This document shows positions 43,141-52,690 of a DNA stretch of 64,000 bases, in pieces. The notes beneath the pieces are model-generated. The model was given only the letters and a program-made list of their open reading frames with translations, had not been told where the DNA came from and did not search any database. Origin of the DNA: Streptomyces verrucosisporus. GTDB taxonomy: Bacteria > Actinomycetota > Actinomycetes > Streptomycetales > Streptomycetaceae. How positions within the stretch are numbered: the stretch's first letter is position 1; every line of letters starts with the position of its first letter. The position numbers and the translations under genes were made by a program. The stretch covers positions 1 through 64,000 of the forward strand of contig NZ_JADEYH010000013.1 in NCBI RefSeq assembly GCF_017114865.1. The letters run 5' to 3'.

Positions 43141-43371
43141 TCAACCGGCGGGGAAGACGCCCGTGTCCACAGCGAGCCCGAAGGGCTCGGGAAGGTGGAT
43201 GGTGTCCCCGAACTTCCCCGCGTGCAGCACCCGGTAGACGTCCTCCTTCGGCTCCCCGTAGAGCGTCACGGTCGGGCCGCCGGGCGCCCAGCGGTCGACC
43301 AGCAGGTACAGCGGCACCCCGGCCTGGGCGTAACCGGCGGGCTTGCTGACCCGGTCGTGCCGGGCGTTGGT
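43141..43371 (-). pseudogene. Uma2-family protein, C-terminal fragment
   Basis: Codes for the last 76 residues of a Uma2 (PD-(D/E)xK-fold, restriction-endonuclease-like) protein: TNARHDRVSKPAGYAQAGVPLYLLVDR, then a strand-rich end and the stop. The rest of the gene lies at 44762-45123, beyond an inserted tnpB element. Joining base 43371 to base 44762 gives a continuous frame through the family-typical join VVEITSSTNARHDRV. Family members are abundant in Streptomyces and cyanobacteria; function not established. As it stands it has no start. Confidence 0.85.
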
Positions 43372-43560
43372 TGACTTCCTCCCCCTCCTGAAGGAGGGGG
43401 ATTCCTACGGCTCGCGCCGTGGGGTTTTCCGCTTCATCACCGGCTGCCCGCCCGGAGTGCTCCGTTTGGGTCTTACACCAGCTCCACAGACAGACGCCGT
43501 CAGCCCGACGGCCAGGATGTTCTTCGCCGCGTTCACGTCCCGGTCGTGGGTCGTCCCGCA
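43372..43560 (-). ncRNA. Predicted omega-RNA (reRNA) region of the intact tnpB element
   Basis: TnpB proteins use a guide RNA from the 3' end of tnpB through the right end of the element, with the guide read from the flanking host DNA. Here the scaffold would cover the tnpB 3' end and the 9-bp hairpin at 43380-43401 and end at 43372; the guide would begin with ACCAACGCCCGGCACG at 43371 and run down. The 5' limit given is a guess. Inferred from family knowledge. Confidence 0.4.
43380..43401 (-). repeat. Right-end hairpin of the intact tnpB element
   Basis: TCCCCCTCC and GGAGGGGGA are perfect nine-base arms around TGAA, eight bases from the right boundary and four bases beyond the tnpB stop. 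This is the structure recognised at the right end in IS200/IS605 elements. Confidence 0.75.
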
Positions 43561-44601
43561 GTCGCACGTCCAGGTGCGGACGCTCAGCGGCACCTTGTCC
43601 CGCAAGGTGCCGCGGGTCGAGCACAGCTTGGAGGAGGGGAACCAGCGGTCGATCGCGATCACTTCGCGGCCGTACCACTGGGCCTTGTACTCCAGCATGC
43701 TCCGGAACTCCGACCAGACCGCGTCACTGATGGCACGGGCCAGGCTCCGGTCCCTCACCATGCTCCGCACGGTGAGGTCCTCGATCACGATCGTTTGGTT
43801 CTCACGAACGAGCCGAGTGGTGAGCTTGTGCGGGTGGTCACGCCTGCGGTCGGTGATGCGGGCGTAGACCTCGGCGACCTTCCGGCGGGCCTTGGCCCGG
43901 TTCGCTCCGTCACCCCTGGCCTTGCGGGCCAGCTGCCGCTGCGTCTTGGCGAGGCGGGTACGGTCACGCCGCTCATGCCGGGGGTTGGCGACCTTCTCCC
44001 CGGTCGAGAGGGTCAGCAGGTGGTCGAGGCCGACGTCGATGCCGACGGCCGCGCTGGTGGCGGGAAGCGGCTTGACGGAGGGGTCCTCGCACAGCAGGGA
44101 CACGAACCAGCGTCCGGCCGCGTCCTGGGAGACGGTCACCGTGGACGGCGACGCACCCTCGGGGAGGGGACGGGACCACACGATGTCGAGCGGTTCCGCC
44201 CTCTTCGCCAGGGTCAGCTTCCCGTCGCGGAACCGGAACGCGCTGGTGGTGTACTCAGCCGACTTCCGCGACCTCTTCCGCGACTTGAGGCGCGGGTACT
44301 TCGCCCGCTTGCCGAAGAAGTTCGTGAACGCCCTCTGAAGGTGGCGCAGGGCCTGCTGGAGCGGGACGGAGGACACCTCGTTGAGGTAGGCGAGTTCCTC
44401 GGTCCTCTTCCAGGCCGTCAGCATCGCCGACGTCTGGTTGCAGTTCACCCGCTCCTGCCGCGTCCACGCCTCGGTGCGCGCGGCCAGGGCCAGGTTGTAG
44501 ACCTTCCGCACGCAGCCGAACGTGCGCGACAGCTCGGCTGCCTGCGCATCGGTCGGATAGAAGCGGTACTTGAACGCCCGCTTCACGTGGGCGGTCTCCA
44601 C
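43405..44601 (-). CDS. tnpB: TnpB, RNA-guided RuvC nuclease of an IS200/IS605 element
   Basis: A 398-residue TnpB (OrfB). N-terminal helical/WED part begins KRAFKYRFYPTDAQAAELSRTFGCVRKVYNLAL. The RuvC catalytic residues are complete: Asp189 in VGIDVGLDH, Glu274 in IVIEDLTV, Asp355 in THDRDVNAAKNIL. The zinc ribbon is unusual: Cys327 is followed by STRG instead of the normal CxxCG, while the second pair Cys346/Cys348 is present, so one zinc ligand looks lost. GTG start at 44601; a GTG five codons later is the alternative. The protein nicks or cuts DNA matching its guide and favours retention of the element. Confidence 0.93.
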   Translation of the reverse strand: METAHVKRAFKYRFYPTDAQAAELSRTFGCVRKVYNLALAARTEAWTRQERVNCNQTSAMLTAWKRTEELAYLNEVSSVPLQQALRHLQRAFTNFFGKRAKYPRLKSRKRSRKSAEYTTSAFRFRDGKLTLAKRAEPLDIVWSRPLPEGASPSTVTVSQDAAGRWFVSLLCEDPSVKPLPATSAAVGIDVGLDHLLTLSTGEKVANPRHERRDRTRLAKTQRQLARKARGDGANRAKARRKVAEVYARITDRRRDHPHKLTTRLVRENQTIVIEDLTVRSMVRDRSLARAISDAVWSEFRSMLEYKAQWYGREVIAIDRWFPSSKLCSTRGTLRDKVPLSVRTWTCDCGTTHDRDVNAAKNILAVGLTASVCGAGVRPKRSTPGGQPVMKRKTPRREP

Positions 44602-44719
44602 GGCTCACACACTAACCCCGTCGGCTTGTGGCGGAGTGCGGGCGGTTGCGGGTGGACACCGGTCCGCCCTGGCGGCGAACCGGCGTTCCCTGCCCTGCTC
44701 CGCAGGAGCCTCGTTTCCT

Positions 44720-44739
44720 CCCCGCCCCAAAGGACGGGG
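44720..44739 (-). repeat. Left-end hairpin of the intact tnpB element
   Basis: CCCCG/CGGGG plus an inner CC/GG pair, with one mismatch, around a CAAA loop, 22 bases from the left boundary. It is the likely left-end recognition hairpin. Confidence 0.6.
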
Positions 44740-44761
44740 TATCCACAAAGGAGAGCCCCAA

Positions 44762-45123
44762 TGACGAGGTGATCTCCACGACGAGTTCCGCATCGTCCGC
44801 CGGGACGGAGCTGCCCTCGGCCTTCTCGACCACAGCCTCCGGTATGACCAGCAGGTCGGGAACGTAGATACCGCTGCGGAAGGGGATCGAGACGCCCTGC
44901 GTCCGGTAGACGTACCAATCCTCGGGAATCGCCCTGTCCAGCAGCCGCTGCAGCCTGGCGGCGATGACATTCCGGTTACCGGCGGGCGGTGGTGACACGG
45001 TGATGACCCCATCGATGATCTCCACCCTGCAGCCCTCGGGCCAGTCCGTCTCCTCCCAGAGGCGGACCAGGTCGTCCCAGTCGCAGGCAGGCCCTGGTCC
45101 TGGATCGACGGTGAGTGCGCTCG
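44762..45123 (-). pseudogene. Uma2-family protein, N-terminal fragment
   Basis: Codes for about 120 residues of the same Uma2 gene: SALTVDPGPGPACDWDDLVRLWEETDWPEGCRVEIIDG, then VYVPDLLVI-like (IYVPDLLVIPEAVV) and LVVEITSS with the acidic residues of the PD-(D/E)xK fold. The start codon is missing because the right end of a second tnpB element abuts codon 1 or 2. The Uma2 gene was thus hit twice, once at its start and once in the middle of the nuclease core. Confidence 0.85.
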
Positions 45124-45131
45124 TGACTCCA

Positions 45132-45151
45132 CCCGCGCGTGACCGCGCGGG
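45132..45151 (-). repeat. Right-end hairpin of the truncated tnpB element
   Basis: Eight-base perfect arms around TGAC, eight bases from the inferred right boundary, the same spacing as in the intact element. Confidence 0.65.
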
Positions 45152-45167
45152 CTTCCTGCGGTCGCGG

Positions 45168-46290
45168 CTAGACCACATCGCAGAGGGCCAGCCCGGCCCT
45201 GTCGAGGATGTTCGCCGCGCCGACGTGATCCGCGTTGGCGGCGAAACCGCACGCCGTGCACCGGAACGCCGCCTGAGTGACGCGGTTGCTCTTGTCCACG
45301 TGCCCACAGCCGCCGAGGCTCGGCGGGCAGGTGACTGAGGTGTTGCGGGGGTCCACCAGGATCACGCGGCGACCGGCACTCTCAGCCTTGTTCGCCAGGA
45401 TTCCCAGGAACTGCCCCCAGCCCGCGTCGAGGATGCCGCGGTTGAGTCCGGCCTTGGCGGCGGCGCCGTTCGGCAGGAACGCGCCGTCGTTGCCGGGGTC
45501 GGCCTTGGGCGCGGGGCTCTTGGTCATCCCGGCGGTGTTCAGCCGCTCGTGCGCGATCACGTCGTGGTCGGTGATGAGTGCGCGGGCGGTCTTGTGGTGG
45601 AAGTCGAGCCGCTGCCGCCGGATCTTGGCGTGCAGCTTGGCGACCTTGCGGGCGGCGGCGCGGTGGCGCTTGGTCCGCTGCCGGGTGCACCTGGGGAACG
45701 CCGCGAGGTGCCGCTGTGCTGCGGCCAGCTCCTCGGTCGCGGAGGCGAGGAAGCGCGGATTCGCCTCGTGCTCGCCCTCGGAGGTGGTCAGGAAGTGCGT
45801 GACGCCCAGGTCGATGCCGACGCTTCTTCCGGTGGGCGGCAACTCCTGGGCGGGCACTTGGTCGCAGACCAGGACGGCGTACCAGCGCTTCCCCTCGCGC
45901 TTCACACTGATCGTCTTGACCCGTCCCTGTACGGGCCGGTGCTGGTGGACGCGCACATGCCCGACGCCTTGGAGGCGGAGGCGGGTCCGCCCATCGTGCG
46001 AGGTGGAGTTCCAGCGGCAGCCGTCGCCGTCCCGGGGGAAGGTGACGGTGTCGAAGTGCCCGGTGCCCTTGAAGCGTGGATACCCGGGAGTCCGCCCGGC
46101 CTTAACCCGCTTGAAGAATGCGGCAAACGCCTTGTCCAGCCGGCGCAGGGTCGCCTGCTGCGAGGAGAACGACCAGCGGCCCTGCCGCTCGGGGTCGAAG
46201 GCGCGGATGTCCTTGAGCTGCGCGGACTGGTCGCCGTAGCGGACGGTGGTCTTCGAGGCGTGCCGCCAGGCATCCCGGCGCTCCTGCAGC
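45168..46290 (-). pseudogene. tnpB: tnpB, 5'-truncated
   Basis: About 374 codons of a TnpB beginning inside the N-terminal domain (ALQERRDAWRHASKTTVRYGDQSAQLKDIRAF). RuvC residues are kept (Asp in VGIDLGVTHF, Glu in DVIAHERLN, final Asp in ANADHVGAANIL) and the zinc ribbon has its four cysteines, although the first pair is stretched (CPPSLGGC). About 30-35 N-terminal residues and the start are missing compared with my memory of the family. The frame stays open upstream across unrelated sequence, so a fusion product is possible but unlikely to be functional. Confidence 0.8.
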
Positions 46291-46312
46291 GCTCGGCGTA
46301 CAGCAAGCCCGT

Positions 46313-47038
46313 ATGAGCATGATCGAGGCGGGCCGGTACGCGGTGAGCGCGGACCGCGTACGAGGCATGGCTCGCGCCTACTCGTGCACGGACCAGGAGT
46401 TGATCGAAGCCCTGGCCGGAATGACCGGTGGGCGAACACGTGGCTGGTGGGAGGAGTACCGCGACATCCTCCCGCCCGGGGCGCTCAACCTCGCCGAGCT
46501 CGAGCACCATGCCACCGCAGTGCGTGTCGCATCGGTTGTCCACGTTCCCGGCCTGCTTCAGACCACCGACCATGCCCGCGCGATCATGACCGACGCCGTA
46601 CCGCCCTTCGCTCCGCACGAGGTGGAGCACCGGGTGTCCCACCGCATCAAGAGGCAGGGCATCCTCTACAAGGACACCCCGACGCCTCTGACCGCAGTCG
46701 TCCACGAAGCCGCCCTTCGCATGGGCTTCGGCGGCGCAGCCGTGGCCCGTGCCCAGCTCGGGCACCTCATCGAGATGAGCGAACGGGAGAACATCACCCT
46801 CCTGGTGATCCCTTTCAGGGCGGGCAACTTCCCCAGTTCAGGGCAGCCCATCGTCTACTACCGGGGCCCGGTACCGCAGCTCGACACCGTTCAGCTGGAC
46901 ACGGATCACGGGTCCGAGTTCATCGACGCCCAAGCGCGCCTGGTGAAGTACCGGACGATCATGGATCGTATGGAGCGGTGTGCCCTCACGCCGGCGGAAT
47001 CCCGTGACCTGATGCACCACATCGCCCAGGAGACCTAA
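46313..47038 (+). pseudogene. Scr1-type (DUF5753) regulator, HTH truncated
   Basis: Codes for 241 residues. It begins in the last helix of an XRE-type helix-turn-helix (SMIEAGRYAVSADRVRGMARAY) and then has the complete DUF5753/Scr1 domain (about 60-235: VVHVPGLLQTTDHARAIM, MGFGGAAVARAQLGHLIEMSE, VIPFRAGNFP, YYRGP). Homologues carry about 30-40 more N-terminal residues with the first HTH helices; these are replaced by the truncated tnpB. The ATG is internal to the original gene; the matching frame continues upstream (GVQQAR) to about 46291. Without its full HTH it probably cannot bind DNA normally, but may still bind the partner encoded next. Confidence 0.75.
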
Positions 47039-47047
47039 GGAGCGAGC

Positions 47048-47248
47048 ATGCCCGACCTCTACTGGCAGAAGTCCACCTACAGCGCTGAGGCCGCCAACTG
47101 CGTCTACGTGGCCGCGAGCGACGACGGCACCATCAAGCTGCGCGAGAGCGATCGCCCCGGCAGCATCCTCACCACCACGCCCGAGAGCCTGAGGACCTTC
47201 ATACGCGGCATCAAGGCGGGCGAGTTCGACCGCTTCACCAAGTCCTGA
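47048..47248 (+). CDS. DUF397-domain protein
   Basis: A 66-residue protein typical of the DUF397 family: YWQKSTYSAEAANCVYVAA, IKLRESDRPGSILTTTPESLRTFIRGIKAGEFD. These are almost always encoded just downstream of a Scr1-type HTH regulator, as here (nine bases), and act as its partner or as its antagonist (the BldB-related and ScrI/II systems). ATG with TAAGGAG upstream. The gene itself is intact although its regulator is truncated. Confidence 0.9.
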   Translation: MPDLYWQKSTYSAEAANCVYVAASDDGTIKLRESDRPGSILTTTPESLRTFIRGIKAGEFDRFTKS

Positions 47249-47260
47249 CCTGGGCGAGGT

Positions 47261-47466
47261 GCGGTGGGGGCCGGGGGTGTGCGGGGGGGGTCGGGGCCGG
47301 TCCGGGGCGAACATTCCGGACGGCATGATTTACGGCCCTTGCCGCGCACCGTTGCCCGGACCGGCGATTGGCCGCAAATCACGCCCCTGGCCTCCGGCAT
47401 GGGGAACCCCGGAGTGTCCGGAACGTCCGCCCCTCCCCGTCCCCTCCCGCCGTCGCCCGGCTGCGG
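47261..47466. repeat. Left arm of a 206/203-bp inverted repeat
   Basis: These 206 bases are the reverse complement of 50023-50225, with two substitutions and a three-base difference in a G-run (eight Gs here, five there). The arms bound 2.56 kb. The repeat is non-coding; none of the open frames across it looks like a gene. It starts 13 bases after the DUF397 stop codon. Confidence 0.88.
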
Positions 47467-47771
47467 CTGGTTCCCGGCTGTCCGTCGCGCGGTACCGCTC
47501 GGGGTCAACTGGTCAGATCCTCGTCTTGTGGGGTGGAGCTTCACCGTCGCGGAGACGCTCAATCGCCTCGCTGCCGCCGACCGGCCGGCACCGGATGCAC
47601 CATCGGAATGAGCGCGGGCGGCATCGGCAGATCAGGTCCCGTCCCGAAGCGCAGCCCGGGTCAGGGCGCTTCGTTCAGCTTGGAGGCGAGCCGCGGATGC
47701 CCTGTCCGCGCAGCCGTGTCGCCCCGGAAAAGGGATTGCCCCGGAGGGAGGGCTCACGTTGGCTGGGCAGC
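47467..47771. other. Non-coding stretch between the inverted repeat and the acetyltransferase gene
   Basis: About 305 bases without a recognisable gene. Frames that run through it lack domain similarity. It should contain the acetyltransferase promoter; no clear -10/-35 pair is visible. Confidence 0.45.
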
Positions 47772-48311
47772 ATGGCCGAACTGCATACCGATCGCCTCGT
47801 CCTTCGTCGATGGCGTGACTCCGACCTCGGACCATGGGCGGCGATGAACACCGATCCCGAGGTCCGCGAGCACTTGGGCGATGTACTCAACCGTGAACAG
47901 AGCGATGCCTCCGTGGCGCTGTTCCAGGCCGACTTCGACCGGCGAGGCTATGGGTGGTGGGCGGTCGAGGTGCGGGCCACAGGCGAGTTCATCGGCTTTG
48001 CGGGCCTGGACGAAGTGGATGACGGCATGCCGTTCACCGGAGTGGAGATCGGCTGGAGGCTCGCCCGGTCGGCCTGGGGCCAGGGCTACGCCACCGAGGC
48101 CGCACTGACGGTACTGGCCTACGGCTTCGACACGCTCGAGGTTCCCGAAGTCCTCGCCGTGACCACAGCCACCAACCTTCGTTCACAGGCGGTCATGCGC
48201 CGGATCGGTATGACCCGGGACCCGGCCGACGACTTCGACGCCCCCGCCGCACCCGAAGGACCACTGCGCCCGACCGTGCTGTACCGGATCGCCCGCGGTA
48301 CGAGAATCTGA
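47772..48311 (+). CDS. GNAT family N-acetyltransferase (RimJ/RimL type)
   Basis: A 179-residue acetyltransferase: N-terminal LHTDRLVLRRWRDSDL, GFAGLDEV, GVEIGWRLARSAWGQGYATEA with the acetyl-CoA pyrophosphate loop (Q/RxxGxG/A reads RSAWGQGYA), and the C-terminal VTTATNLRSQAVMRRIGM. This is the RimJ/RimL branch that acetylates protein N-termini or small molecules, including antibiotics. ATG at 47772, preceded by GGCTGGGCAG. It is inside the inverted-repeat cassette, transcribed opposite to the hydrolase gene. No resistance phenotype can be assigned. Confidence 0.9.
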   Translation: MAELHTDRLVLRRWRDSDLGPWAAMNTDPEVREHLGDVLNREQSDASVALFQADFDRRGYGWWAVEVRATGEFIGFAGLDEVDDGMPFTGVEIGWRLARSAWGQGYATEAALTVLAYGFDTLEVPEVLAVTTATNLRSQAVMRRIGMTRDPADDFDAPAAPEGPLRPTVLYRIARGTRI

Positions 48312-48427
48312 CGTTCGCCGCGGCGGCAGGGGCATGTACACGGAAGACGCGGTACGGCATGCGGGGAAGTCGATCCGCACCCCGCAGTGCGCCGGACGGC
48401 ATGGCTTACGGCCGCCGCTGCGGCCCG

Positions 48428-49827
48428 TCAGCCGGCCGAGCCGGTGACCCAGGCGGAAACCTCTCCGTCGAGTTCCTCGGGCGCCTTCGTATGGCCTGGA
48501 TACCTGTAACCCAGACGGTCGGCGTCGGGGTACTTCTCGGCCCGTGCTTCCGCCGCATAGGGCGGATTGACCGGGTCCAGGGAGTTCACGAGGAGAAGCA
48601 GTCTCGGTGCTTCCTCCGCATCGGGCATCGTCCATGTGGAGTCCGCACCGGCAGACATCACCGAGCACGGACGGTGCATGCCCGAGAGCGCGGCTCCGAG
48701 GGGATTCCTCTCCGGCGATCCCGCGCCGACTCCCCACCCCGGGTACGCCGTGCAGACATTGGCGAGGTACCCCACGAACTCCGGGAGCACCTGGCCGTCA
48801 CGGTCACGGCGGGTGTAGCTACGACTGTCGGACTCTACGACCCCTTTACCCGCCTTGCCGATATCCGGCCAGTTGGCCAGGATCTCGCGCAGTGGTTCAG
48901 CGTTTTTTCCGAGGTCGCGGGAGAGGGAGAAGAGAGCGGTCATCCGCTCGTACTCCTCGGCGCCGTCGGCGAGACCGGTCTGCGTGCCGTCGTAGCCCAT
49001 GTCCCGGAGCGTCCGGTGAAGCTTCTGCCGGCAGTCGGAGGCCGCATCGCTTTCGTCGCATTCCATGACGTCCTGCAAGCCCGCCTCCACCGTGAGGCTC
49101 CGCCCGACCATGAGCGTGGTCGCGAACGTGCCCGGCGGAGGCGCGGGAGCGTCCATCACCGCCCAGCCGCCGGCGCGTTCCAGTTCGGGCATCACAGCCG
49201 TTGCCCGGACCGCGCCGAACGACTGCGCGTACACCCCCGATATCTTCCCCTCCTTCTCGACGAGTTCCTTGAACGACTTGTGGTATTCCGCACGGTCGAG
49301 GCGGTAGAGGTCCATGTCGCAGGAGTTCCGGAAACCTTCGGGCCAGTTCTTCGTCTGCCATTCCGAGAGTTCGCCGCCCTTCGACACGCCAGTGACGATT
49401 TCGAGGCATTCGGTGCCGACCCCGTGAACAGCCCAGGGCTCGACGAATGTGGCCACCGCCCGGTGGCGCAGCCAGGAAGGAAGAAGCGATCGGGCGGCCA
49501 CGGCGTCCAGCGGACGCGGCCCGGTCCTTCCCGGGTCCCAGAGGACCAGTCCGTCCCGTTCTCCAGGTGTGCGAGCGGTCGGCGCGCCATCCTCACCGGG
49601 GGTGTGTAGATCACCGCCCACACCCCCGTGGGGAGCAGGTGGCAGCGGACGGTCTCGTCGGCACACGGCTGAGGCTCGGGAGCCGCCGACTGCCCGCGCT
49701 CGTCGGCCCGGTACACATACAGGCCGACGAGGACGACGACGGCCAGGGCCGCCACGCCGGCGAACCAGGGGACGGCCGTGGCGCGGCCGGGGTTACGCGC
49801 CCCCGGCATGCCGCGCTTGCGTCGCAC
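48428..49827 (-). pseudogene. Membrane-anchored alpha/beta hydrolase (TAP-like, S33), one frameshift
   Basis: Two overlapping frames make one protein. The first (from GTG 49827) encodes a transmembrane anchor (WFAGVAALAVVVLVGLYVY) and VRCHLLPTG onward; the second (ending at 48428) encodes the hydrolase: DGLVLWDPGRTGP, the nucleophile elbow VYAQSFGAVRAT, VMDAPAPPPG, and a TAP-like C-terminal domain with LLLVNSLDPVNPP (acid) and YPGH (His). The switch is at about 49550-49562, near CGGGACGG; one extra base would join them in a 466-residue protein. The elbow has Ala for the first Gly. Base composition is less G+C-rich than its neighbours. Either a decayed gene or a sequencing slip in a G-run. Confidence 0.75.
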
Positions 49828-50022
49828 TGGTCACAGGTGTCCCTGGTCGAGGTCGGGGCTTCCGGGAGGTCAATGGACCGAGGGCTGACCGTATCGCGCG
49901 AAGCGGGAGACGAGACCGCCGGGAAGCGGTGCCGACGGAAGCGGCGATCGTCTTCGCCCCGCGCCCGCAGCCGGGCGACGGGCCGATACCGCCCTCGGGG
50001 TCCGGACCGCACCGCCGTCCGC

Positions 50023-50225
50023 CCGCAGCCGGGCGACGGCGGGAGGGGACGGGGAGGGGCGGACGTTCCGGACACTCCGGGGTTCCCCATGCCGGAGGCC
50101 AGGGGCGTGATTTGCGGCCAATCGCCGGTCCAGGCAACGGTGCGCGGCAAGGGCCGTAAATCATGCCGTCCGGAATGTTCGCCCCGGACCGGCCCCGACC
50201 CCCGCACACACCCGGCCCCCACCGC
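50023..50225. repeat. Right arm of the 206/203-bp inverted repeat
   Basis: Reverse complement of 47261-47466. Directly before it, a 19-base segment of the arm (GCCCGCAGCCGGGCGACGG) occurs once more at 49963-49981, so the inner end is partly duplicated. Directly after it is a hexamer repeat (GCACCC x4, about 50224-50248). The stretch 49828-50022 between the hydrolase start and this arm contains no gene. Confidence 0.88.
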
Positions 50226-50581
50226 ACCCGCACCCGCACCCGCACCCGGAAAACAAACGCCCCCCTCCGCGTTAACCCGAAGTTGCGGAACCGGTCTCAC
50301 CGAGAGAATTCCTTTCCGATTCGGAAATCGAACGGAATGAGCCCGCTGAAGGGCGGCGTCCGCCGATAGCCTGGCGCTGCCTCGTCGATCAGCGCGGGGC
50401 AGCCGCGGGAGTGCCCGAGGGGAGGGCGTTCCGATCGCGGTTCCGGGGGTGCGGTGGAGGCAGGGGGAAATCGCCGCGCGGACAACCGCGCGTTCCGGCA
50501 CACGCAGGCGCACGAAGGCGCTGAATTCGCTTCTCCGCCACCCCGGAATCACCACCGATTCACCGAAGGTGAGGACGACCC
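50226..50581. other. Upstream region of the beta-trefoil gene
   Basis: A 356-base stretch without a gene. It starts with the hexamer repeat and has lower G+C at 50250-50340. A palindrome TTTCCGA-T-TCGGAAA (50313-50327) is a candidate operator or promoter element. The last bases hold GAGG, eight bases before the GTG of the next gene. Confidence 0.5.
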
Positions 50582-51301
50582 GTGCGACGCATGACCTCCG
50601 TTCTTCTGGCCCTGAGCGCTCTGGTGGGGGCCTCCGCGCTGACCGCCCCGGCGGCCGCGGCCGCCGGGCAGACCGGCCGTCCGGCCGCCGCGCAGACCGC
50701 CGTACCGGCCGGCTGGGAGGTGGTCCGGGGTGGTGAGGTGGCCGCCCTGAACGGCGGGGCGGACGGCGAGCGCTCCTCCGCCCCCCAGGGCCCCGCCGCC
50801 CGGAACCTCACCGCTCAGGACCTCACCGAGCAGGGCTCGGAAGCGGACGAGACCTCCCTCATCGCGATGCAGTCGGTCCGCAACAAGCGGTTCGTGACGA
50901 CCGAGAAGACCTACCCGGCTCCCAACACCGGTGCGCTGCGGGCCCGTTCCGCCGAGTACGGCGGCTCCTGGGAGGGCTTCGCCTTCGAGTGGGACGAGAC
51001 CACCGAGACCTACGCCCTGAGGTCGCTGGCCAACGACCTCTACGTGGCGGTGGAGAAGAACTTCACCGGCAGCTCCCAGAACCTGCTGCGCGCCCGCTCC
51101 ACCGGTGTGGGCGGCTGGGAGCGGTTCGTCGTGTACTACAACGAGGAGCTGGACCGCTGGGCGCTCCAGTCCACGTTGAACGGCCTGTTCGTCGCCATGG
51201 AGAACGGCTACACCGGCTCGCTCCAGTACGCCCTGCGCGCCCGTTCCGCCGAGATCGGCGGTTCCTGGGAGGAGTTCGTCCTCTACGACCTGGGCGCCTG
51301 A
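50582..51301 (+). CDS. Secreted beta-trefoil (fascin-like) protein
   Basis: A 239-residue protein: signal peptide (RRMTSVLLALSALVGASALTAPAAAAA), an Ala/Gly linker (about 28-90), then about 145 residues with three to four repeats of a beta-trefoil pattern: LIAMQSVRNKRFVTTEK, LRARSAEYGGSWEGFAFEW, YALRSLANDLYVAVEKNFTG, LLRARSTGVGGWERFVVYY, WALQSTLNGLFVAMENGYTG, LRARSAEIGGSWEEFVLYD. This is the fascin/ricin-like layout of extracellular carbohydrate- or protein-binding modules. No enzyme domain is attached. GTG start. Terminated by a strong hairpin shared with deoA. It is the last gene of the island region. Confidence 0.82.
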   Translation: MRRMTSVLLALSALVGASALTAPAAAAAGQTGRPAAAQTAVPAGWEVVRGGEVAALNGGADGERSSAPQGPAARNLTAQDLTEQGSEADETSLIAMQSVRNKRFVTTEKTYPAPNTGALRARSAEYGGSWEGFAFEWDETTETYALRSLANDLYVAVEKNFTGSSQNLLRARSTGVGGWERFVVYYNEELDRWALQSTLNGLFVAMENGYTGSLQYALRARSAEIGGSWEEFVLYDLGA

Positions 51302-51322
51302 GCCCCGGCCGGACGGACGGAA

Positions 51323-51360
51323 AGGCGCCCGTACCCCACGTCCCGGGGGTACGGGCGCCT
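51323..51360. terminator. 15-bp bidirectional terminator
   Basis: Arms 51323-51337 and 51346-51360 are perfect complements with an eight-base loop, between the convergent trefoil-protein gene and deoA. Confidence 0.82.
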
Positions 51361-51403
51361 CCGTGTGCGCGCCGCCCACGGCGTACGGCCGTGAGGGCGG
51401 GTG

Positions 51404-52690
51404 TCAGGCGATGCGGTCGAGGATCAGAGGGGTCGGGGCGAAGGAGGCGCCCTCGGCTTCCCCGGCGATTCCGATCGCGTCGCCGGTGAGCGCTTCGAGG
51501 GCGTAGTCGAAGCGCTCGGGGGTGTCGGTGTGGAGGGTCAGCAGCGGGGCGCCGGCGGTGACGCGGTCGCCGGGCTTGGCGTGCAGCTCCACCCCGGCAC
51601 CGGCCTGCACCGGGTCCTCCTTGCGCGCGCGGCCCGCGCCCAGGCGCCAGGCGGCGACGCCGACGGCGTACGCGTCCAGCTTCGTCAGGACGCCGGAGGT
51701 CTCGGCGCGCAGGACGTGCCGCTCGCGGGCGGTGGGCAGGGGCGCGTCCGGGTCGCCGCCCTGGGCGGCGATCATGCGGCGCCAGTGGTCCATGGCCGAG
51801 CCGTCGGCGAGCGCCTTGGCCGGGTCGGCGTCCGGCAGTCCGGCGGCGGCGAGCATCTCGCGGGCCAGCGCCAGCGTCAGCTCGACGACGTCGGCCGGGC
51901 CGCCGCCGGCCAGGACCTCGACCGACTCGCGGACCTCCAGGGCGTTGCCGGCGGTCAGGCCGAGCGGGGTGGACATGTCGGTGAGCAGGGCGACGGTGCG
52001 CACCCCGTGGTCGGTGCCGAGCCCGACCATGGTGGAGGCCAGTTCGCGGGCGTCGCCCGGGTTCTTCATGAACGCGCCGGAGCCGACCTTGACGTCCAGG
52101 ACGAGCGAGCCCGTGCCCTCGGCGATCTTCTTGGACATGATCGAGGAGGCGATCAGGGGGATCGCCTCGACGGTGCCGGTGACGTCGCGCAGGGCGTAGA
52201 GCTTCTTGTCGGCCGGGGCCAGTCCGTCGCCGGCCGCGCAGATCACCGCGCCGACCGAGCGCAGGACGTCCATCATCTCGTCGTTGCTCAGCAGTGCCCG
52301 CCAGCCGGGGATGGACTCCAGCTTGTCCAGCGTGCCGCCGGTGTGGCCCAGGCCGCGGCCGGAGAGCTGGGGGACGGCGGCGCCGCAGGCGGCGACCAGC
52401 GGGGCCAGCGGCAGGGTGATCTTGTCGCCGACGCCGCCGGTGGAGTGCTTGTCCGCGGTGGGCCGGGACAGGGCGGAGAAGTCCATCCGCTCGCCGCTGT
52501 CGATCATCGCGGCGGTCCAGCGGGCGATCTCCTCGCGTTCCATGCCGTTGAGCAGGATCGCCATGGCCAGGGCCGACATCTGCTCGTCGGCGACCTCGCC
52601 GCGGGTGTAGGCGTCGATGACCCAGTCGATCTGGGCGTCGCCGAGGCGGCCCCGGTCGCGCTTGGTGCGGATGACGGAGATGGCGTCCAT
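51404..52690 (-). CDS. deoA: Thymidine phosphorylase
   Basis: A 428-residue pyrimidine nucleoside phosphorylase (family PyNP/DeoA) that splits thymidine or deoxyuridine with phosphate to base plus deoxyribose-1-phosphate. Motifs: DVIRTKRDG-like N-terminus (DAISVIRTKRDRG), SGRGLGHTGGTLDKLESIPG (family signature), VKVGSGAFMK, TDMSTPLGLTAGNALEV, and the C-terminal AGAGVELHAKPGDRV domain. Last gene of the transporter-cdd-deoA operon; 43 bases follow cdd. The product joins the deoxyribose-phosphate pathway (mutase, deoC) encoded 24 kb away. Confidence 0.96.
   Translation of the reverse strand: MDAISVIRTKRDRGRLGDAQIDWVIDAYTRGEVADEQMSALAMAILLNGMEREEIARWTAAMIDSGERMDFSALSRPTADKHSTGGVGDKITLPLAPLVAACGAAVPQLSGRGLGHTGGTLDKLESIPGWRALLSNDEMMDVLRSVGAVICAAGDGLAPADKKLYALRDVTGTVEAIPLIASSIMSKKIAEGTGSLVLDVKVGSGAFMKNPGDARELASTMVGLGTDHGVRTVALLTDMSTPLGLTAGNALEVRESVEVLAGGGPADVVELTLALAREMLAAAGLPDADPAKALADGSAMDHWRRMIAAQGGDPDAPLPTARERHVLRAETSGVLTKLDAYAVGVAAWRLGAGRARKEDPVQAGAGVELHAKPGDRVTAGAPLLTLHTDTPERFDYALEALTGDAIGIAGEAEGASFAPTPLILDRIA

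Follow-up and report, generated by a model that had tools for sequence, protein, structure and literature searches.

The DNA analysed here (the window, 64,000 nucleotides from Streptomyces verrucosisporus) contains a near-perfect inverted repeat that encloses a GNAT acetyltransferase gene and a TAP-like hydrolase gene. A first-pass annotation of the sequence had described both the repeat and its contents, and both are confirmed, the former by alignment of the arms and the latter by Pfam matches, the match of the hydrolase lying just above threshold (21.7 bits, against a cut-off of 21). The features at the locus are the following.

43405-44601, - strand: TnpB-type gene (OrfB_IS605; Pfam), outside the unit
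45168-46322, - strand: TnpB-type gene (OrfB_IS605; Pfam), outside the unit
46313-47038, + strand: DUF5753 gene (XRE-type regulator without the N-terminal part), upstream partner of DUF397
47048-47248, + strand: DUF397 gene; its stop codon precedes the left copy, an arrangement shared by S. pini, S. barkulensis and S. carminius
47258-47466, + strand: left arm, a full copy of a palindromic repeat; begins 10 bp past the DUF397 stop codon, in the direction of DUF397
47325-47383, + strand: apical hairpin within the left copy, ATGATTTACGG ... CCGCAAATCACG; conserved better than any other part of the family
47385-47411, + strand: optional hairpin insert of ~25 bp, missing from the S. pini orthologues of both arms
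47772-48311, + strand: GNAT acetyltransferase gene (Pfam); between the copies, a passenger by position only
48428-49666, - strand: TAP-like hydrolase gene (Pfam); between the copies, a passenger by position only
49963-50022, - strand: a further small hairpin unit next to the right arm, ending in the 19-base terminus of the arm
50023-50228, - strand: right arm, a second full copy in the opposite orientation; follows no present-day gene

When aligned, the left arm (209 nt) and the right arm (206 nt) differ by two substitutions and by 3 bases in the length of a G run, as had been reported, and at this run the repeat finder splits them into segments of 181 nt at 99% and 30 nt at 97% identity. Since the runner-up among inverted repeats within the 10 kb around it reaches only 37 nt at 78% identity, the arm pair is not a product of chance. 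The 19-base repeat at 49963-49981 pointed out in the first-pass annotation is also real, and is accounted for by the small hairpin unit, which shares this end with the arm. The statement that no transposase is encoded beside the unit calls for qualification, as the two TnpB-type genes lie outside it. Target duplications had been suggested as something to look for at the outer ends of the arms; none is visible there by eye (CTGGGCGA precedes 47258 and CGCACCCG follows 50228).

Several smaller observations concern the genes around the arms. The hydrolase is spread over two overlapping - strand frames (48428-49666 and 49192-49827), is a single open frame in S. pini, and is possibly a frameshifted gene or the result of a sequencing error. 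The DUF5753 gene, next to a TnpB gene (window 45168-47038), begins at a point before which related genes, as in genome G043, already have a helix-turn-helix part; the regulator looks truncated. Most of this gene (46293-47024) is absent from S. pini. A 22-bp segment at 48392-48413, 81 bp past the GNAT stop codon and in the same direction, matches the apical part of the repeat at 91% and is perhaps a decayed copy. The right copy is located between the hydrolase gene and a secreted-protein gene at 50582.

The first-pass annotation named absence of the arms elsewhere as a result that would speak against it, and proposed a search for solitary copies and for copies around other genes. Copies of both kinds are present, in the genome itself and in others. 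In S. verrucosisporus there are eight copies with E of 3e-32 or better. Four of them form two inverted pairs, one being the arms themselves and the other consisting of C1:171108-171313 (-) with C1:172095-172300 (+), whose orientation is the reverse of that in the window; the rest stand singly, at C1:179710, C1:187187, C84:52021 and C29:243634. The four copies of the two pairs, on two contigs, are near identical, and the other copies are 74-87% alike to the left arm. The repeat is an imperfect palindrome of 165-206 bp. Within the genus, matches were found in 15 of 199 genomes by blastn, with the best four candidates scored per genome, and in 22 of 150 sampled genomes with a covariance model, S. 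verrucosisporus being included in both counts; in a family-wide sample the covariance model found matches in 23 of 150 genomes, representing 5 of 17 genera. Copy numbers range from none to about 40 across members of the genus, the counts being lower bounds with 2 to 40 candidates scored per genome in many searches. S. carminius TRM SA0054 (G356) has at least 41 matches, corresponding to about 40 copies, one copy being split into two matches and some copies at contig ends possibly being one and the same; genome G089 has at least 19. The family thus consists of many dispersed copies per genome, in the manner of REP or ERIC repeats. Exact matches to the core comprise 24 stretches, from S. barkulensis, S. 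pini, S. carminius, S. megasporus and Streptomyces sp. DH37. The arm has no full copy in plasmid and phage collections, with no match at E of 1e-5 or 0.01, and Rfam gives no match at E up to 1 for window positions 46000-51500 and none at E up to 0.5 for nine loci. The 25-bp insert has relatives of its own that stand alone, both elsewhere in S. verrucosisporus and in further genomes (C18:192959-192987, at 97% identity, is one example), and so represents a second small hairpin repeat. Contigs C22, C39, C40, C52, C56, C68 and C70 of S. carminius (L135, L137, L142, L145) begin or end in or near copies of the 165-206 bp repeat, and such repeats therefore probably break assemblies.

Each copy reads, from left to right, as a G-rich left side, a stem strand, ATGATTTACGG, a variable apical stretch, CCGCAAATCACG, the optional insert, the returning stem strand and a C-rich right side. 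RNAalifold applied to 25 aligned copies from several genomes gives 31 base pairs, 13 of which show changes on both sides, so that the stem is kept by compensatory change. Of the alignment cells, 97.7% are paired in this structure and 38-57% in versions slid along the alignment, a comparison that favours the former to some extent because the structure was derived from the same alignment. None of 500 shuffles equalled the observed value on any of five measures. Covariation was used because the folding of a single arm compared with shuffled sequences is weak evidence (z = -1.32 as DNA and -2.64 as RNA). When the strands are folded separately, the antisense RNA is the more stable of the two in 106 of 111 copies, and G-U pairs are not over-represented on the sense strand, which indicates that the palindrome is conserved, not clearly as sense RNA. 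This test goes against selection acting solely on the sense RNA. Neither a U tract nor a T run follows the right end of the element; of the two components of an intrinsic terminator, a GC-rich hairpin and a U tract, only the hairpin is found.

The location of the copies relative to genes was examined for 111 separate copies in eight genomes. In 45 copies the left end has a stop codon of a same-direction gene no more than 100 bp away, and in 8 the right end has an opposing stop codon at no more than that distance; one copy may count on both sides. Genes were called by a codon-composition rule and not from annotation; the rule missed DUF397, which was corrected manually. The copies are intergenic and overall biased to the 3' ends of genes, and this bias is carried by G356 (19 on the left vs 2 on the right, of 34 copies), G173 (11 vs 0 of 19), S. 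verrucosisporus (5 vs 1 of 8) and G458 (7 vs 4 of 9); it is strong in the first two and non-significant in either of the last two taken alone. It is absent in G464 (1 vs 0 of 19) and G481 (0 vs 0 of 18), and the remaining genomes contribute few copies (G391, 1 vs 0 of 3; G043, 1 vs 1 of 1). Pairs in the + ... - arrangement that stem from convergent genes, each with a copy, occur at L134, L136 and L139 and in Streptomyces sp. DH37. Inverted pairs are consequently common without any cassette.

These observations bear on the possibility that the element functions as DNA, for example as a site for a chromosome-organising protein or as a cruciform, with its position after genes reflecting no more than tolerated insertions. 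In its favour are a palindrome equally good on the other strand, the strong conservation of the apical sequence and the two genomes without stop-codon bias. However, the strong directional bias to stop codons in G356 and G173 is unexpected for a strand-neutral site, and we consider this explanation unlikely, if worth bearing in mind.

Comparison with close relatives indicates how long the copies have been in place. Both arms are found at the same places and in the same orientation in S. pini and S. barkulensis; those of S. pini both lack the 25-bp insert. S. pini has a full copy at seven of the eight S. verrucosisporus sites and a 51-base remnant at the eighth, and seven of the eight sites were seen to be occupied in S. 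barkulensis; from these comparisons the copy sites are evidently old. The identity between the two arms is 88.9% in S. pini, 96.3% in S. barkulensis and 99.0% in S. verrucosisporus. Let A and A2 denote the left and right arms and C and C2 the two members of the pair on contig C1. Within S. verrucosisporus the identities are 99.0% (A-A2), 99.5% (A-C) and 99.5% (C-C2). Identities to the orthologous copies are 93.9% (A), 88.9% (A2) and 92.7% (C) for S. pini, and 92.7% (A), 96.3% (A2), 92.3% (C) and 92.7% (C2) for S. barkulensis; the coding DNA of npdG, the gene between C and C2, is 99.0% alike between S. verrucosisporus and S. barkulensis. In a tree, A, A2, C and C2 group together (support 97/96), and the S. 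pini copy from the C site joins other S. verrucosisporus sites (98/97). Four copies on two contigs that are closer to each other than to their orthologues argue for gene conversion, in support of the suggestion in the first-pass annotation that conversion keeps the arms alike. The npdG-flanking pair of S. barkulensis has been made alike too (98.9%). At site C84 a copy can agree with its orthologue in the outer stems and diverge from it in the apical part, a pattern that patchy conversion would give. Site 29 stands outside the homogenisation, with 94.4% identity to its S. barkulensis orthologue and 79-84% to the other S. verrucosisporus copies. Gene conversion has reportedly been proposed for REPs as well, by Higgins in 1988.

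The same comparisons weigh against a mobile composite, in which the 2.97-kb unit would move as a whole with the arms serving as ends for a transposase encoded elsewhere. The arms are indeed near-identical and inverted, and the GNAT and hydrolase genes are missing from the aligned place in G043 and G214. The stretch missing from G214, however, extends well past the unit; solo copies and copies around other genes exist; the C1 pair is oriented opposite to the window pair; the arms of S. pini occupy the same places with only 88.9% identity; and no target duplication is seen by eye. We regard the composite as largely refuted and hardly credible. The proposals of a MITE-type composite or passenger cassette made in the first-pass annotation are likewise not supported, given that the arms belong to a set of eight dispersed copies, that relatives already have both arms in position, that other intervals carry other genes, and that pairs elsewhere come mostly from convergent genes, each with a copy at its 3' end. 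As a separate observation, G214 is without the entire accessory stretch 43171-50241 and has ~50 bp in its place.

The history of the right copy can be approached through the secreted-protein gene beside it. In DH37 a same-direction copy follows a - strand lipoprotein gene adjoining this secreted-protein gene, and in G043 a copy follows a 486-codon frame beside it. From these layouts we infer that the right copy was left behind on the loss of such a gene. In S. barkulensis a different gene takes the place of the lipoprotein gene beside the right copy, so the history of this copy is not simple.

Another possibility is that the individual repeat, rather than the unit, is a MITE or REPIN-type element that is still transposing or was doing so recently by means of a Y1 or other transposase, the identity of the copies reflecting recent spread. 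Its palindromic structure resembles that of REPs, its copy number varies from none to about 40 in the genus, and the S. verrucosisporus genome has two Y1 transposase genes (IS200/IS605). But the near-identical copies occupy sites that are already occupied in relatives, and neither a clean empty site nor a target duplication was found at four S. verrucosisporus sites compared with G214 and S. pini. The G214 sites without the element keep end-like sequences, with a different short hairpin between the ends at two of them (a short unit of this kind adjoins the right arm in the window), and the S. pini remnants keep the element ends. The Y1 transposase as mobiliser is rejected on genome distribution, which does not track the family: of the genomes tested, 3 of the 8 that bear the element have Y1_Tnp, as do 2 of the 4 that lack full copies, and the finished genomes G089 and G058 have many copies and no Y1_Tnp. 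Nor is the element motif found in the surroundings of the two S. verrucosisporus Y1 loci (L041/L042), so that the arrangement of a REPIN/RAYT system, a Y1 transposase present with and flanked by the repeats, is not seen. We judge recent or continuing transposition to be quite unlikely.

The first-pass annotation further proposed that recombination between the arms flips the enclosed genes. For the window pair this receives no support, whereas the sister pair on contig C1 does appear to have flipped a gene. This pair encloses npdG, an F420-dependent NADP reductase gene (L009 6109-7301), which in S. verrucosisporus, S. pini, G214 and S. barkulensis is reversed relative to its neighbours, map and an M50 peptidase gene. 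A further 21 genomes were examined; npdG was located in 20 of them and has the opposite direction in all 20. Only S. carminius among the 21 has copies at the npdG locus, one directly after npdG and, about 7 kb from it, one beside map that faces the other way, which is the arrangement expected before an inversion. Both copies are present at this locus in S. barkulensis, one copy and a remnant in S. pini, and only end-like remnants in G214. The simplest account would be an inversion of npdG by recombination between copies in the ancestor of these four genomes. As for the window pair, one may think of a present-day switch in which the segment flips between the arms and alters the expression of the enclosed genes. 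Inverted arms of 206 bp are long enough for homologous recombination, and the sister pair sets a precedent of one apparent flip. Yet the order and direction of the GNAT and hydrolase genes are identical in S. verrucosisporus, S. pini and S. barkulensis (on two contigs in the latter), and no inversion of the window segment was found among these relatives, whose draft assemblies cannot show mixed orientations. A switch of this kind seems to us improbable.

The arms are probably two fixed members of an apparently undescribed REP/ERIC-like family of putative 3'-end hairpins. We consider it likely that, overall, the locus is best explained by a long-resident Streptomycetaceae family of palindromes with homogenised copies that form putative hairpins at transcript ends. 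This reading is built on the covarying stem with its fixed apical sequence, the sites shared by close relatives and the homogenisation within the genome. The element would be co-transcribed with the preceding gene and fold into a long hairpin, by which the transcript would be terminated or protected, perhaps on both strands. The copies would have spread by some route and would be kept alike by exchange through RecA-type gene conversion. Two opposite copies would have come to flank the GNAT and hydrolase genes, of which the left copy follows DUF397 and the right copy is probably the leftover of a lost gene; inverted pairs would occasionally recombine and flip the interval between them, as seems to be the case for npdG. 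Because two separate resident copies suffice, the inverted repeat in the window needs no special event. A more far-reaching version, which we put forward only tentatively and hold to be somewhat doubtful, is that these transcript-end hairpins are a transposase-less family, distributed across Streptomycetaceae, that evolves as one population per genome, its copies staying at fixed sites after genes and swapping apical halves and inserts by conversion; pairing would be kept, the versions of different species would drift, and inverted pairs would sometimes flip a gene.

Transcript ends in Streptomyces are poorly understood and often have no U tracts, and a recognisable family of hairpins located after genes would offer a way into the study of termination and mRNA stability. 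It would also inform how repeats can disperse and remain similar when no transposase is obvious. For the interpretation of draft genomes, near-identical inverted arms need not signal a recent mobile element, and repeats of such a family can cause assembly breaks and small inversions.

No description of the family was found in one open-access full-text library, whose coverage excludes preprints, and Streptomyces is not mentioned in the main texts of PMC3733652, PMC12306157 and PMC2267715. Among known systems, REPs (GTAG and CGTC superfamilies) and BIMEs are described in the relevant parts of PMC3733652 as palindromes of 20-40 bp, intergenic and mostly located 3' of genes, with pairs between convergent genes, compensatory variants in the stem and copy numbers that vary widely among relatives. 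The present family is likewise palindromic, intergenic and 3'-biased, with convergent pairs, a compensatory stem and a variable copy number; it differs from REPs in its length of 165-206 bp and its five-helix stem, and it is assigned neither a GTAG nor a CGTC tag, as no tag at a fixed place is seen by eye in the alignment of copies. Closer in size are the ERIC, NEMIS, Ype, Efa and Bor repeats, which sections of PMC1590033 present as long hairpin repeats near the 3' ends of genes, at moderate copy number, and with a proposed action in co-transcribed RNA. Our family shares the long hairpin and the position near gene 3' ends, but those repeats come from other phyla and are unrelated in sequence, and no Streptomyces genome appears in those sections of PMC1590033 or in its list of species. 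REPINs, mobilised by RAYT (TnpA-REP) proteins, are characterised in portions of PMC3116915 and PMC8266576 as dispersed palindromic repeats with conserved sequence in the unpaired flanks and long persistence. Our family is also palindromic, dispersed and long-persisting, but no Y1 transposase tracks it and none at L041/L042 is flanked by the element. The family thus works like a REP/ERIC-type repeat and fails the tag and size of the GTAG/CGTC REPs and the transposase link of the REPINs. The remaining comparison is with transcript ends mapped by Term-seq in S. clavuligerus, where, according to passages of PMC8269248, many ends after genes are GC-rich hairpins without a U tract (HS-U-lack TEPs) and bidirectional transcript ends follow 10 of 24 XRE-DUF397 pairs. 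HS-U-lack TEPs are defined by RNA ends, whereas our family is known here from sequence alone; like them, the left arm is a GC-rich hairpin that follows an XRE-DUF397-type pair, and by this analogy its place fits the transcript ends found after such pairs in S. clavuligerus.
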